Shown in pieces: positions 50,627 to 54,555 of a stretch of 64,000 bases of DNA (position 1 is the first letter of the stretch; every line of letters begins with the position of its first letter). Where the stretch lies: NCBI RefSeq assembly GCF_000739695.1, contig NZ_BBIO01000006.1, forward strand, positions 1 to 64,000. The letters run 5' to 3'. A model generated the notes under the pieces. It was not told the DNA's origin and ran no database searches. It saw only the letters and a program-made list of their open reading frames with translations. The translations under genes and the position numbers were made by a program. This stretch comes from Tepidicaulis marinus. GTDB lineage: Bacteria; Pseudomonadota; Alphaproteobacteria; Parvibaculales; Parvibaculaceae.

Positions 50627-51760
50627 ATGGCAGGCACATTCGTCAACGAAGCGCTGATCGGCAAGAAGGATGGTGCGGGAGAGCTGGCAACACCGGCGCT
50701 CGTCATCGACCTGCCGGCCTTCGAGCGTAATATCAAAACCATGGCCGAGCATTGCGCGCGCGCCGGCCTCACGCTGCGCCCCCATGCCAAGACCCATAAA
50801 TGCGCCGAGATCGCCCGCCGCCAGATCGCGGCCGGGGCGGTAGGCATTTGCTGCGCAAAACTCGGCGAGGCCGAAGTCATGGCCGATGCGGGCATCGAAA
50901 ACATTCTCCTAACCTCGCCGGTCGTGCTGCCGCGCGCATTGGACCGGCTCATGGCGCTGAATGACCGCATCCCCGATCTTCATGTCGTGATCGATAGCGA
51001 GGAAAACGCCCGCGCGCTTGAAGCGGCGGCGGAAAAGGCGGGCCGCCCGCTCAACGTGCTTGTCGATCTCGATATCGGGCTGCACCGCACCGGTATCGCG
51101 CCGGAGGCAGCCCCTGCGCTTGCCCGCTTCGCCGATGGCGCTAAGCATCTGCGCTTTAAAGGGCTGCAGGCCTATGGCGGCCATCTCATGCATATCGAAG
51201 GTTTTGCCGAGCGGCGCGAAAAGTCCCTGGCCGCCATGGACGTCATGAAGAGCGTGAAAGACGCGCTGGAAAAAGAGGGTATTCTCTGCCCCATCATGAC
51301 GGGCGGCGGCACCGGCACCTTCGATATCGACCCGGAGGCAAATGTCCTCACCGAGCTGCAGGGCGGCTCCTACATCTTCATGGACAAGCAATATAACGAC
51401 GTGGAAGGGGCGAACGGCAACGTGCCTTTTGAGACCGCGCTTTACGTGCAGATGTCCGTCATCTCCAACAACACCCCGCGCCTTGCGACAACGGATGCGG
51501 GCTTCAAATCCTTCGCCACCGACGCCGAGCCGCCCCTCCTGCGCTCCGGCGCGCCGGAGGGGGCAAGCTATTTCTTCTTCGGGGACGAGCAGGGCGGCAT
51601 CCTCCTGCCGAAAGGCGAGAGCCTGCCACTCGGCGCGGTGCTGACCGCCGTCACCCCCCACTGCGACCCGACCGTCAATCTCTACGACGCCTATCACGTC
51701 GTGGAAGAGGGCGTCCTCACCGCCATCTGGCCCATCGAAGCGCGCGGACGAAGTGCTTGA
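50627..51760 (+). CDS. DSD1-family PLP enzyme (D-threonine aldolase / 3-hydroxyaspartate aldolase-like)
   Basis: 377 residues of the alanine-racemase-like type III fold. 'TPALVIDLPAFERNI' leads into 'LRPHAKTHKCAEIARRQI', whose lysine binds PLP; 'VDLDIGLHRTGI', 'IMTGGGTGTFDID' (phosphate loop) and the metal site 'VTPHCDPTVNLYDAYHVV' (His and Cys) follow. Relatives retro-aldol cleave D-threonine or D-3-hydroxyaspartate, or dehydrate D-serine. ATG 50627 has GGGGGAGAGAG upstream. It stands alone; the substrate cannot be chosen from sequence. Confidence 0.8.
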   Translation: MAGTFVNEALIGKKDGAGELATPALVIDLPAFERNIKTMAEHCARAGLTLRPHAKTHKCAEIARRQIAAGAVGICCAKLGEAEVMADAGIENILLTSPVVLPRALDRLMALNDRIPDLHVVIDSEENARALEAAAEKAGRPLNVLVDLDIGLHRTGIAPEAAPALARFADGAKHLRFKGLQAYGGHLMHIEGFAERREKSLAAMDVMKSVKDALEKEGILCPIMTGGGTGTFDIDPEANVLTELQGGSYIFMDKQYNDVEGANGNVPFETALYVQMSVISNNTPRLATTDAGFKSFATDAEPPLLRSGAPEGASYFFFGDEQGGILLPKGESLPLGAVLTAVTPHCDPTVNLYDAYHVVEEGVLTAIWPIEARGRSA

Positions 51761-51818
51761 TACAAAACAGAAAAATTATCTCCTCGGCAAAAATATCGGA
51801 AAGTTGCGAGAATTCTTG

Positions 51819-51846
51819 TTGACCCACTATTGTTTATTGTTATTGT
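51819..51846 (+). promoter_or_regulatory. Promoter of the TetR gene (leaderless)
   Basis: TTGACC (51819-51824), 16 bases, TATTGT (51841-51846). A start seven or so bases on would fall at the ATG of the TetR gene (51853), and there is no Shine-Dalgarno. Confidence 0.55.
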
Positions 51847-51863
51847 GAGTAAATGATCACTCA
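51846..51863. promoter_or_regulatory. Regulon operator, copy 1 (spans TetR start codon)
   Basis: TGAGTAAATGATCACTCA: inverted repeat with arms TGAGTRAW and ATCACTCA around TG. The ATG of the TetR gene (51853) is inside it. The same 18-mer recurs at 52512 and 52876. Confidence 0.8.
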
Positions 51864-52440
51864 ACGAAACAAAGCGACTGGTGAAACGAGAAAGCGGCTG
51901 GTGGCCGCCGCCCTGCAACTCTTTGTTGAGAAGGGTGTGGCGGCAACCACCACGCGGGATATCGCCAAACAGGCCGGTATTTCGGAAGGGGCAATGTACC
52001 GCCACTTCGAAAGCAAGGAGACGTTGGCGCGCGAGCTGTTCATGAGCGAGTTTGCTCCGTTCTCGGATGCGCTGGCCCAGATCGAAAATATGCCGGTCAG
52101 CCTGATCGAGAAAGTCGATCATATGGTGCGGTACTTCTATCAGGCATTCGACGCCAATCCCGCGCTGTGGCGCTACATTGTGACGTATCAGTCGGGGCCG
52201 TGGTCTAGAGTGTCGGATGATATGGAGACGCCGGTTTCCGTTGTCTTCAAGGCGCTGCGCAAGGCGGAAGAGCAAGGTAAGATCAAGCTGAACGATACCG
52301 CCTTGCAAGTGCAATTGGTAATCGGCCTGGTGACACAGCCGGCCATTGGCGTTGTGTTTAACGAGATTGAACTTCCGCTGAGCCCCAAGCGCGGGCAAGT
52401 GGTCGAGGCGGTGGCTGCGGTACTTGGTATCGAGCCTTAA
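51853..52440 (+). CDS. TetR family autoregulator
   Basis: 195 residues. The HTH is near the N-terminus: 'TTRDIAKQAGISEGAMYRHFESKETLA' region (core IAKQAGISEGAMYRHF). The start codon lies inside an 18-bp operator and seems to coincide with the transcription start, so the mRNA is probably leaderless and the repressor autoregulates. Two further copies of the operator head the next two genes, so all three form one small regulon. The upstream 90 bases are AT-rich, unlike the surroundings. Ligand unknown. Confidence 0.88.
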   Translation: MITQRNKATGETRKRLVAAALQLFVEKGVAATTTRDIAKQAGISEGAMYRHFESKETLARELFMSEFAPFSDALAQIENMPVSLIEKVDHMVRYFYQAFDANPALWRYIVTYQSGPWSRVSDDMETPVSVVFKALRKAEEQGKIKLNDTALQVQLVIGLVTQPAIGVVFNEIELPLSPKRGQVVEAVAAVLGIEP

Positions 52441-52453
52441 GCTGCCTAAGCTG

Positions 52454-52480
52454 GCAGAGTGATGTGAAGGATCACTCTGC
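52454..52480. other. Stem-loop after the TetR gene
   Basis: GCAGAGTGAT-GTGAAGG-ATCACTCTGC is a perfect 10-bp inverted repeat. It contains AGTGAT/ATCACT like the operator arms but with a 7-base centre. No T run follows, so a terminator is doubtful. Confidence 0.6.
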
Positions 52481-52490
52481 TCCTACCCAC

Positions 52491-52504
52491 ACCCGATATC
52501 GGGT
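52491..52504. promoter_or_regulatory. 14-bp palindrome upstream of the small secreted protein gene
   Basis: ACCCGATATCGGGT is fully self-complementary. It adjoins TAATAAT (52504-52510), a possible -10, which abuts operator copy 2. Confidence 0.45.
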
Positions 52505-52511
52505 AATAATG

Positions 52512-52529
52512 TGAGTGAATGATCACTCA
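52512..52529. promoter_or_regulatory. Regulon operator, copy 2
   Basis: TGAGTGAATGATCACTCA, 16 of 18 or better identity to copies 1 and 3, placed right after a -10-like TAATAAT and 15 bases before the start of the small secreted protein gene. Confidence 0.8.
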
Positions 52530-52543
52530 AAATGGAGATGATG

Positions 52544-52861
52544 ATGAAAAAGCTACTTCTTTCTGCTGCCCTGTCCGCCGTCATTTGCCTGCCGGCGACG
52601 GCCCAGGCTTCCCGCTCGGGACTGACCGATTCTGAAATCGCTTTGCTTTTTGTAGGGGTGCCGGTCGCTAGCGGTGCTGCGGTAGCGGCTGCTGCCAGTG
52701 CCGCGCCGGTTGCAGCCGCCGGCTCGGGCGGCGCGGTGCTGTTGATAAACGGGGCAAACAGTCTCGACAAGGCGATCAAAGAAGACGCCAAACGGGAAGC
52801 ACTCGAAGTCGACGATGTGTCGATCATCACGGACAGAAACGGGACCGCAACGGCCCAGTAA
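52544..52861 (+). CDS. Small secreted Ala-rich protein, second gene of the TetR regulon
   Basis: 105 residues from ATG 52544, six bases after GGAG (four in-frame ATGs lie between 52532 and 52544). The signal peptide ends 'TAQA'. A long Ala/Gly/Val hydrophobic stretch follows (about 30-70) and could insert in a membrane or self-assemble, then a charged 'KAIKEDAKREALEVDDVSII' and a short tail. I see no catalytic motif. In layout it resembles small exported proteins such as the Salmonella STM0539 type, but I cannot claim homology. Controlled by operator copy 2. Confidence 0.6.
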   Translation: MKKLLLSAALSAVICLPATAQASRSGLTDSEIALLFVGVPVASGAAVAAAASAAPVAAAGSGGAVLLINGANSLDKAIKEDAKREALEVDDVSIITDRNGTATAQ

Positions 52862-52875
52862 TTTCAACATAGTAG

Positions 52876-52893
52876 TGAGTAATTGATCACTCA
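52876..52893. promoter_or_regulatory. Regulon operator, copy 3
   Basis: TGAGTAATTGATCACTCA, 10 bases before the start of the DUF2145 gene and just after a -10-like CATAGT. The GGAG Shine-Dalgarno overlaps its end. Confidence 0.8.
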
Positions 52894-52903
52894 GGAGATT
52901 GTT

Positions 52904-53719
52904 ATGTTTGATACCCGCCTTCGTTCCAATTTTGTTGCTGCTGTTTTTGCTCTGCTTGTCAGCGTTGTCTGTGCGCTTCTGCCCGATGTGGCGTCTGCCA
53001 ATAGTTCTGCTGCGCCGGAGGGCATTAAAGATCCGGAGCGTGTCTTGCCGTTTGCCAAGAAGGTCGAGCGGGAACTGGCCGCGCGCGGCGCGCGCGTTGC
53101 CATTGTCGCCCGCGTTGGCCGGGACCCTGAAAGCCTGCCGGACGGGATTGATTACACACATGTCGGTATCTGGATCTATTCCGACATCGAGACGGAAGAT
53201 GGCCGGACCGTGCGAGGATATGCTGTGCACAATCTTTATCAGTTCAACGATGATTTGAGCCGCTCTTCGCTCCAGCAGGATTTCCCGCCGGATTTCTTCG
53301 CAGACGTTTTCGCGATGCGGGCAGGTATCACTATTCCCTCGCCCGAACTGCAGGACCGGCTTGTCGCGTTCGTCTCGAGCCCGTCATATGCCAAACTTCA
53401 TGTCCCCAATTACTCGCTCGTCGCAAATCCCTATGACACCGCTTACCAAAACTGCACGAACTTCGTTCTGAGTACGCTGATCGGGGCGATCCATGGCACC
53501 GATGATCTCAGCAAGGTAATAGAGATTGCCGCAGAGAGCGGGTATGAACCGCAGAAAGTCGAGCTGAACGGGCTGCAGCGCGCATTCGGTCCCCTCTTCG
53601 TGGCCGGCTTTGAAACGGACGATCATGATGGAGATATCCGTACGTCCACCCTGGGATCGATAACGAAATATCTTCAGGCCCAAGAGCTGGTGGATGCCAG
53701 TTTTGTTATCGAAGAATGA
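52904..53719 (+). CDS. DUF2145 family exported protein, LRAT/permuted-papain-like
   Basis: 271 residues from ATG 52904 (GGAG seven bases upstream). Signal peptide to about 33. The body matches DUF2145: 'PFAKKVERELAARGARVAIVAR', in part, then 'GIDYTHVGIWIYSD' with His86, 'GYAVHNLYQ', 'ANPYDTAYQNCTNFVLSTLIGA' with Cys184, and a C-terminal helical part. Order His then N-C-x-x-F is that of LRAT-like circularly permuted papain folds (H-box, then N-C-E-H-F), so a periplasmic thiol hydrolase or acyltransferase is inferred. Third unit of the TetR regulon, under operator copy 3. Confidence 0.75.
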   Translation: MFDTRLRSNFVAAVFALLVSVVCALLPDVASANSSAAPEGIKDPERVLPFAKKVERELAARGARVAIVARVGRDPESLPDGIDYTHVGIWIYSDIETEDGRTVRGYAVHNLYQFNDDLSRSSLQQDFPPDFFADVFAMRAGITIPSPELQDRLVAFVSSPSYAKLHVPNYSLVANPYDTAYQNCTNFVLSTLIGAIHGTDDLSKVIEIAAESGYEPQKVELNGLQRAFGPLFVAGFETDDHDGDIRTSTLGSITKYLQAQELVDASFVIEE

Positions 53720-53748
53720 GGACTGAATGGAATGAACGCGCTCTTCCC

Positions 53749-54555
53749 TCAAGATGCCGGGAAGAGCGCGTCCGTTTTGCCGGTGAGGTAATAGGCAGTC
53801 AGCCCGAGCCATTCCTTGACGGCGAAATCGGTGAAGGCGATGCCGTCGGACGAAAAATAGAAGAAGGAGAAGGTATGCTCGCCGCCGGTTTGATAATCGG
53901 CGGGATAGGGCAGAACCTCGAAACCTGCCGCGCGGAAGGTGCCGAGCGCGCGGGGCATGTGATAGGCGGAGGTGATGAGGAGCCAGGGCGCTGCCTCGCT
54001 TGCTCCGAGCCCGGCGGCCATCGCCTTGGCTTTCACCGCGTTCTCATGGGTGTTGCGCGAGTGTTTTTCGAGAATGAGCCGTTCCGGCGCAACGCCGATC
54101 CCGGTCAAAACCTCCGCCATGATTTCCGCTTCCGAGGCAATGGCCTCATCGCCCGGCAAGAGCGCGTTGTTGCCGCCGGAAAGAAGAAGCGGGATTCCGG
54201 GATAGCGCTCAGCGAGCTGGCGGGCTGCCAGCAGCCGTTCGCCGCCAGAGAGAATGGCAGGCTCGCCCCGCGCCGCGCTCACTTCCATATGAACCGCGCC
54301 GCCAAGCACGATGATGCCGGCGGGTGTGCCGGTTATTTCCGCTCGCGGAATACGGTCTTCGAGCCCTGCCGTCAAAACCCGGCCGAGCGGCGAAAAGGAA
54401 ATCACGAAAAGCCCGCAAAGCCCGATGGCGAGACAAGCGCGCCCGAGCCGCCGGAATCTGGTCAGCGAGAGCGCAAAACCGCCCGCACTTAAAAACAGAA
54501 AAGCGGCGGAGGGCTGCAAAAAGAACCAGACGATCTTGGACAGCGCGAAAAACAT
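53749..54555 (-). CDS. YdcF/ElyC family (DUF218) membrane protein
   Basis: 268 residues. Two N-terminal membrane helices (about 5-30 and 37-58), then a periplasmic DUF218 Rossmann-like domain: 'GIIVLGGAVHME', 'GGERLLAARQLAERYPG', 'LLLSGGNNALLPGDEAIASEAEIMAEVL', in short S-G-G-N and S-E-A, 'EKHSRNTHENA' and 'LLITSAYHMPRAL'. Relatives SanA and ElyC affect envelope permeability and lipid-carrier use in peptidoglycan synthesis. It lies 72 bases after the Gfo/Idh/MocA gene on the same strand. Confidence 0.8.
   Translation of the reverse strand: MFFALSKIVWFFLQPSAAFLFLSAGGFALSLTRFRRLGRACLAIGLCGLFVISFSPLGRVLTAGLEDRIPRAEITGTPAGIIVLGGAVHMEVSAARGEPAILSGGERLLAARQLAERYPGIPLLLSGGNNALLPGDEAIASEAEIMAEVLTGIGVAPERLILEKHSRNTHENAVKAKAMAAGLGASEAAPWLLITSAYHMPRALGTFRAAGFEVLPYPADYQTGGEHTFSFFYFSSDGIAFTDFAVKEWLGLTAYYLTGKTDALFPAS

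Follow-up and report, generated by a model that had tools for sequence, protein, structure and literature searches.

We describe a three-gene unit in a 64,000-nucleotide stretch of the Tepidicaulis marinus genome (contig NZ_BBIO01000006.1, positions 1 to 64,000 of the forward strand; hereafter the window). Three genes lie on the same strand at 51819-53719; the first encodes a TetR-family regulator, the second a small Ala-rich protein predicted to be exported, and the third a DUF2145 protein. We found that one 18-bp palindrome stands ahead of each gene and that its first copy covers the start codon of the TetR gene. We consider it quite likely that this is a self-contained, autorepressed TetR unit, probably with a leaderless TetR mRNA, and that it controls a periplasmic papain-like, possibly lipid-acting DUF2145 protein together with its small partner. 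The sites, their registers and conservation, the cassette boundaries, the catalytic-type residues, and the predicted fold were read from the sequence.

The operators and the start of the TetR gene

The palindrome TGAGTnAnTGATCACTCA occurs exactly at 51846, 52512, and 52876, and it consists of the arms TGAGTGA and TCACTCA around a 4-bp centre. A first reading of the window, made from the letters alone (the sequence-only reading), had reported three near-identical inverted repeats before the three genes, and all three proved to be exact 18-mers. When up to three mismatches were allowed, the window held no fourth place, and the two extra rows were sites 2 and 3 on the opposite strand; in 100 shuffled versions of the window, the mean number of matches at this threshold was 0.07 (largest 1). 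The genome scan with the 18-mer that the same reading had proposed showed only the three cassette sites with 0-2 mismatches in the whole genome (3.48 Mb). Seven places elsewhere had three mismatches, against 0 for a control pattern (the operator read backwards), and the genome may contain further weak operator sites. The features of the unit are as follows, where cassette genomes are the present genome and nine relatives described below.

51819-51824, + strand: -35-like box TTGACC of the TetR promoter (promoter search; TTGAC kept in relatives)
51841-51846, + strand: -10-like box TATTGT, whose last base is base 1 of operator 1 (promoter search; sequence)
51846-51863, + strand: operator 1, from -7 to +11 relative to the putative leaderless start (overlaps the ATG in all ten cassette genomes)
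51853-52440, + strand: TetR-family regulator, 195 amino acids (PF00440, 1.2e-18; fold matches to the TetR family, FadR first)
52453-52481, + strand: stable RNA hairpin between the TetR and small genes (-21.1 kcal/mol for 52440-52490, z -3.07)
52507-52512, + strand: -10-like TAATGT at operator 2 (by analogy of register; missed by the promoter search)
52512-52529, + strand: operator 2 (exact copy; relatives have a degenerate version at a similar position)
52544-52861, + strand: small Ala-rich protein, predicted to be exported (52532 is an alternative start; homologues in the ten cassette genomes)
52876-52893, + strand: operator 3 (exact copy; this genome only, none seen ahead of DUF2145 in relatives)
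52904-53719, + strand: DUF2145 protein, 271 amino acids, with a signal-peptide-like N-terminus, a predicted YiiX-like permuted NlpC/P60 fold, and H86, Y170, and C184 (PF09916, 1.6e-51)

The ATG of the TetR gene (51853) is base 8 of operator 1. The sequence-only reading had noticed this overlap, and we found it in the identical register in all ten cassette genomes. The -10-like box TATTGT ends on base 1 of the operator, and TTGACC lies 16 bp upstream of it. This was the sole promoter-like pair in 51700-53000; shuffles gave a mean of 0.6 such pairs, so it is weak evidence when taken alone. Across the cassette genomes, TTGAC begins at -34 to -36 from the TetR ATG in all nine aligned genes and at -35 in the tenth genome. 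In addition, an in-frame TAA stands directly 5' of the ATG, and TGA or TAA is found there in 10 of 10 cassette genomes; therefore, the TetR frame cannot begin further up. No Shine-Dalgarno sequence was evident by eye before the TetR ATG in these ten genomes. The promoter geometry, the lack of an evident Shine-Dalgarno sequence, and the conserved register support the earlier suggestion that the TetR mRNA is probably leaderless, with a 5' end on or adjacent to the A of the ATG. The same reading had placed a -10-like hexamer before each operator. In the register of site 1, this is right for sites 1 (TATTGT) and 2 (TAATGT), whereas site 3 has only the poor AGTAGT.

Furthermore, the first codons carry a signal of their own. 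Majority identity was 94% over the 18 columns of operator 1, 53% at -50 to -37, and 51% at -29 to -13, and within the coding part it was 74% for codons 5-11 and 83% for codons 12-65. Codon 3 is the rare ACT in all ten genomes, and ACT accounts for 4 of the 147 Thr codons from codon 7 on (the cassette sequences are related by descent, and this count is not a probability). Third positions identical in all ten TetR genes numbered 8 of 186 (codons 5-190). Residues 1-7 of the TetR model had a predicted local distance difference test score (pLDDT) below 50 (five models, best 85.3, worst 52.4), and thus the conserved MIT is unlikely to be kept for structural reasons. On the simplest reading of the aligned genes, it seems that the operator and not the protein keeps TetR codons 1-3, with the DNA site dictating the N-terminus.

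Conservation of the cassette among relatives

The family sample included 40 genomes, and a search at the order level gave the same 40. DUF2145 was found in 11 of them, including a marginal 59-residue match (7.6e-4) in G025 that was not counted as a cassette, which leaves the cassette in 10 of the 40. Homologues of the small protein were present in exactly the same 10 genomes as DUF2145. The nine cassette genomes besides that of the window all belong to one other genus (g5). A D-serine-dehydratase-like gene (DSD), TetR, the small gene, and DUF2145 follow in this order in all eight of the relatives' contigs that span the unit; the tenth cassette genome (G016) has the unit split over two contigs. 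After the unit comes a Gfo/Idh gene in seven of these eight, and in the eighth (L026) about 880 nt of contig are left, without a Gfo match. Lack of conservation of gene order and operator in relatives was among the outcomes that the sequence-only reading had named as refuting it, and both are kept, the order on 8 of 8 spanning contigs and the operator over the ATG in 10 of 10 genomes.

The TetR alignment covers nine of the ten genes, the tenth having been identified later, and the small-protein alignment has eight sequences, with the broken gene of G019 and the later G016 omitted. The family DUF2145 alignment includes two incomplete proteins (L025 and L026). Meanwhile, the DUF2145 gene is split into two frames in G019 (L079), and it lacks an N-terminal stretch in G021 (L069); these defects reflect either decay or assembly error.

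In the 40 genomes, operator sites with 0-1 mismatch numbered nine in seven genomes, and all of them were inside the cassette. The remaining three cassette genomes have a TetR site with two mismatches, and there were four cassette sites with two mismatches in total.

The second and third sites showed a different picture from the first. Between the TetR and small genes, all ten genomes have a site-like sequence; it matches the consensus exactly in the window and departs from it at 2-5 positions in the relatives. Among 2000 letter shuffles of this intergenic sequence per genome, at most 26 were as good, and at most 2 in eight of the ten genomes. This second site reads TGAGTGARTGTTCACA in six relatives, and its best match is in a shifted register in three. 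The third operator was found in the window genome only, and none was seen ahead of DUF2145 in the relatives. Seven relatives have an intact junction, and the gap from the small gene to the DUF2145 ATG is 1-3 bases in six of them and 29 bases in the other; because of these 1-3-base junctions, the small gene and DUF2145 look like one operon in the relatives. Thus, the three-unit description given by the sequence-only reading holds for this genome, but the relatives have two sites and apparently a single operon for the two exported proteins. The comparison of these loci suggests that the three-unit design is a local elaboration of a two-site design, as it seems.

In G131, a genome from another family of the same class (L030/L091), a homologous TetR (37% identical) precedes the small gene and DUF2145. 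By eye, there is a palindrome GTAAGTAATCACTTAC before its TetR gene and a similar one, GTTAGTAATCGTTTAC, before the small gene, which the repeat finder did not list. Here the TetR gene begins with GTG, preceded by GGAGG, and its palindrome is located upstream of the gene. Because G131 has two palindromes but a Shine-Dalgarno-led TetR, two-site autoregulation may be older than the leaderless arrangement.

Presence, absence, and origin of the unit

In G039, a genome of the same genus with flanks 91-93% identical, the block from about 51761 to 53747 is absent, and the neighbours abut with eight other bases between them. This clean empty site, together with the absence of further 0-2-mismatch sites in the present genome, bears out the earlier description of the unit as self-contained. 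DSD and Gfo neighbours without the cassette were also found in four of five further cassette-less genomes (L176, L178, L179, and L180); the fifth (L177) had no Gfo match near DSD in the stretch examined and was omitted from this count. The G + C content is 55-57% in the unit and 60-63% in the flanks.

Several origins were considered and rejected. For insertion with a target-site duplication, the ends compared share no direct repeat of at least 6 bases. For a plasmid origin, the plasmid relatives of DUF2145 are distant and few (2 of 72,556 records). For a defence system, PADLOC had no match for the small protein or DUF2145 and only a weak match for the helix-turn-helix of TetR (0.0016). For a phage origin, matches in PHROGs were restricted to TetR.

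The TetR protein and its possible ligand

The N-terminal helix-turn-helix domain of the regulator matched PF00440 with 67 bits against a cut-off of 24. The top Foldseek matches of its model were Bacillus FadR structures (3whb, 3whc, 1vi0, and 5gp9), one of them with stearoyl-CoA, and the TM-scores of the first two were modest (0.65-0.74). Since 465 TetR-like chains reached E <= 0.001, the lead of the FadR fold is small. FadR was also among the full-length sequence matches, with other TetR proteins ranking above it. All listed NCBIfam scores were below their cut-offs, for instance, 61.4 for the ScbR type, 59.8 for MtrR, and 31.9 for AcuR (NF051457, cut-off 247). The protein is not assigned to FadR, and there is a resemblance of fold only. 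In addition, TGAATGA as a half site of Bacillus subtilis FadR was not confirmed in the literature searched. By analogy with the TetR family, the unit would be induced by a ligand. If the ligand were a hydrophobic, acyl-type molecule, the unit with its YiiX-like protein could be read as a coherent lipid or lipoprotein response; we offer this as a guess and hold it to be doubtful at present.

The DUF2145 protein

The third protein matched PF09916 over the whole profile (1-200 of 200) with 175.2 bits against a gathering cut-off of 25. Its model had a mean pLDDT of 93.2. No credible sequence relative was found in the PDB (best E 0.57). When the Foldseek candidates were aligned with VIA-align 2, YiiX (2if6) gave Z 11.9 and a root-mean-square deviation (rmsd) of 3.7 over 166 residues, and 3kw0 gave Z 8.7 and rmsd 4.0 over 154 residues. 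We predict from the model that DUF2145 has a YiiX-like circularly permuted NlpC/P60 (papain-like) fold. The sequence-only reading had called the function of the system unknown, and this may now be narrowed to such a fold with a small exported partner.

Permuted NlpC/P60 enzymes have H, Y, and C residues, and hydrophobic lipid-type pockets have been reported for them, an assignment that is itself a proposal (PMC3142127). H86, Y170, and C184 were invariant in 36 aligned DUF2145 sequences, namely that of the window and those of 35 of the 56 collection loci, with fragments and near-duplicates omitted. Cys, His, and Tyr were likewise all kept in the nine aligned family sequences. The collection scan was seeded on the motifs YQNC and YTHV (the Cys motif), and hence a separate, unseeded Pfam sample was used. 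It comprised 29 loci, the best-scoring of 46 match rows with the own genome omitted, and it leans towards members that resemble the Pfam profile: His and Tyr were present in 29 of 29, Cys in 15, and Ser in 14. A survey gives Ser and a positively charged pocket for DUF2145 (PMC10318531), and the window clade has Cys, unlike the Ser of the surveyed family. DUF2145 was found in 39 of 398 sampled genomes of the phylum.

As a separate observation, loci L096-L125 include both Cys-type and Ser-type DUF2145, and 10 of the 14 Ser-type loci have an Ala/Ser/Val-rich frame ahead of the gene (loose rule).

The small partner and its regulators in other lineages

By a loose rule, 75 of 90 loci have a small exported-type frame rich in Ala, Gly, Ser, and Val immediately ahead of DUF2145; in the same loci, such a frame precedes 21 of 503 other frames of at least 200 amino acids. 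Some of the 15 misses do have a small frame (L039, L077, and L111). A lipobox-like motif was found in 17 of the 75 small frames, and 15 of these 17 fall within the 32 loci of a Rhodobacteraceae-rich set (L040-L074).

The regulators vary. Among eight out-of-class loci with longer flanks, six have a divergent regulator beside the small gene, and two, on short contigs, have none. The six (L137, L138, L139, L140, L142, and L143) include a Cro/C1-type protein in L137, the one scanned, and the rest are 34-80% identical to it. A TetR of another type lies directly downstream in 4 of the 56 collection loci, with PF13305 in the two that were scanned. Furthermore, L043 has a divergent TetR with a PF13305 domain, and L094 has a 30% match nearby. 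A YiaAB-domain gene is found near the unit in L137, L138, L143, and L047, the last of which also has a PspA gene. In L047, PspA, YiaAB, the small protein, DUF2145, and the other-type TetR stand in a row (L047:3394-6419). The PspA and YiaAB neighbours are a thin hint of a possible envelope stress or phage-shock response; no published link of PspA with YiaAB or YiaA was found in the literature searched.

A bolder reading, which we consider less likely than not, is that the two genes form a widespread and apparently undescribed envelope module of a small exported Ala/Ser-rich protein and a permuted NlpC/P60 DUF2145 protein. Its regulators would have been exchanged between lineages (a divergent Cro/C1-type protein, a TetR_C_33 TetR, or a TetR whose operator includes the start codon). 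The module would act on envelope components that are acylated, and the small protein would be its substrate, its adaptor, or its anchor.

Other features of the locus

The small gene probably starts at 52544 rather than at 52532, because GGAG at 52534-52537 precedes this start and the starts of the relatives align there. The DUF2145 start at 52904 also sits behind GGAG, at a normal distance as in the small gene. The hairpin at 52453-52481 has the arms GCAGAGTGAT and ATCACTCTGC, which repeat operator-like half sites (GAGTGAT..ATCACTC). It could be an attenuator, a protector of the mRNA end, or a relic operator; as an intrinsic terminator after TetR it was rejected, having no T run and not being among the predicted terminators. 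The DUF2145 and DUF218 genes converge, and between them, at 53738-53769, lies a GC-rich inverted repeat seen by eye (GCGCTCTTCCC / GGGAAGAGCGC), possibly a terminator.

Proposed mechanism and alternative explanations

In the model that follows, we infer the repressor action, the leaderless mRNA, the ligand, the substrate, and the partnership. A TetR dimer would bind TGAGTGA-N4-TCACTCA. At its own promoter, the dimer would occupy the DNA from the last part of the -10 box through the transcription start to the first codons and so block RNA polymerase. The TetR mRNA would be leaderless, with its first base on or beside the A of the ATG, and weakly translated. The promoter of the small gene would be a further target of the repressor, and in this genome DUF2145 would be under separate control by it; in the relatives, a weaker second site would precede a single operon of the small gene and DUF2145. 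A ligand, for which a hydrophobic acyl type is a guess, would enter the C-terminal pocket of TetR, and the sites would be released. Both products would then be exported, and the Cys/His site of DUF2145 would possibly act on acyl or lipid-linked envelope substrates, with the small exported protein as its partner.

Several results weigh against this model or parts of it. No good -35 box was seen at promoters 2 and 3, and the promoter search of 51700-53000 missed both. The second site of the relatives is a degenerate operator at most, and repression there may be weak or absent because of its 2-5 mismatches and its shifted register in three genomes. Outside the cassette, there were 17 sites with exactly two mismatches in eight family genomes, against one for the control pattern, and six of these genomes have no cassette (G003, G004, G005, G006, G009, and G022). 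To judge from these sites, the relatives have other targets or other regulators with similar sites, and the 17 may belong to other TetR proteins. With regard to the ligand, the score of 38.7 bits for the FadR model NF053878 is far from its cut-off of 200, and FadR was only the sixth NCBIfam match. Meanwhile, Foldseek with the DUF2145 model gave no PDB match at E <= 0.001, so that YiiX emerged only from VIA-align 2, and catalysis is not universal in DUF2145, because 14 of the 29 unseeded loci have Ser for Cys.

One alternative is that the TetR mRNA is not leaderless, so that a transcript from upstream or from another start is translated without a Shine-Dalgarno sequence and the overlap merely reflects compactness. 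The DSD gene, on the same strand, does end 92 nt before TetR, and G131 has GGAGG, a GTG start, and a palindrome upstream of its TetR gene. However, the spacing of TTGAC...TATTGT places the transcription start on the ATG, the register and the rare ACT codon are kept in 10 of 10 genomes, and a Shine-Dalgarno sequence is not evident by eye, which makes this alternative quite improbable. That the palindromes are sites of a different regulator, with the adjacent TetR unrelated, can hardly be credited. The 2-mismatch sites in six cassette-less family genomes would agree with it, but sites with 0-1 mismatch occur only alongside this TetR gene among the 40 genomes, and in the TetR-small-DUF2145 unit of G131, TetR and the small gene both have a palindrome of another sequence, as co-evolution would give.

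The other two alternatives concern the DUF2145 protein. It might be a peptidoglycan amidase or endopeptidase, and not a lipid enzyme, induced by wall damage. Peptidoglycan cutting is indeed the activity of canonical NlpC/P60 enzymes, as described in PMC3142127; the His-then-Cys order and YiiX as the nearest fold speak for the permuted type, for which the same source reports lipid-type pockets as a proposal, and we regard the peptidoglycan explanation as rather unlikely. It might also be a binding protein on a dead papain-like scaffold, and the unit an envelope-binding or sensing pair. This would suit the Ser of 14 unseeded loci and the Ser and positively charged pocket of the survey (PMC10318531), but Cys, His, and Tyr are kept in the nine family sequences and in the 36 of wider origin, and so unlikely is our grade for it. 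We thus retain the autorepressed TetR unit with a possibly lipid-acting DUF2145 protein as the preferred explanation.

Relation to known systems

Leaderless TetR genes with overlapping operators are already known. The acuR mRNA of the acuR-acuI-dddL operon in Rhodobacter sphaeroides starts exactly at the AUG, and the paper cites tetR of Tn1721 (PMC3017554). Like the present unit, that operon has a TetR-family repressor as its first gene, an mRNA starting at AUG, an inverted repeat overlapping the promoter, and downstream genes with Shine-Dalgarno sequences. However, it is one operon for dimethylsulfoniopropionate and acrylate with the operator TAATAGAC-n6-GTCTATTA (same source). In the window, each gene has its own copy of the site, the operator contains the TetR ATG, and the regulator is far below the AcuR cut-off (31.9 bits against 247). 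Bacillus FadR, an acyl-CoA-responsive repressor of TetR type, is similar in giving the best Foldseek matches and in being among the full-length sequence matches, but it differs in its model score (38.7 bits, cut-off 200), and the targets in the window are not beta-oxidation genes.

YiiX and other permuted NlpC/P60 proteins share with DUF2145 the fold and the His before the Cys, with a Tyr-Cys spacing of 14 in DUF2145 and 13 in YiiX (PMC3142127). DUF2145 is different in its low identity to 2if6 and 3kw0 (12% and 10%), its signal peptide, its N-terminal extension, its small partner gene, and the common Ser variants. LnsA of the LnsAB system for lipoprotein N-acylation is likewise a permuted NlpC/P60 protein of YiiX type, and it acts jointly with another protein on envelope substrates that are acylated, a likeness by description only (PMC7387801). 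However, LnsB is a CPBP-type membrane protein and not a small exported Ala-rich one (same source). In the literature searched, which did not include subscription journals, we found no description of a start-codon operator with codon-level constraint, of its reuse before each target, or of its pairing with DUF2145.

In this unit, a single stretch of DNA would serve as repressor site, transcription start, and coding start, which makes it a compact and testable case. Furthermore, the codon-level evidence suggests that a DNA site has fixed the first residues of a TetR protein. Finally, the DUF2145 family is linked here with a small partner gene, with a switch of inducible type, and with a predicted fold like that of lipid enzymes, and thus its substrate can be searched for.

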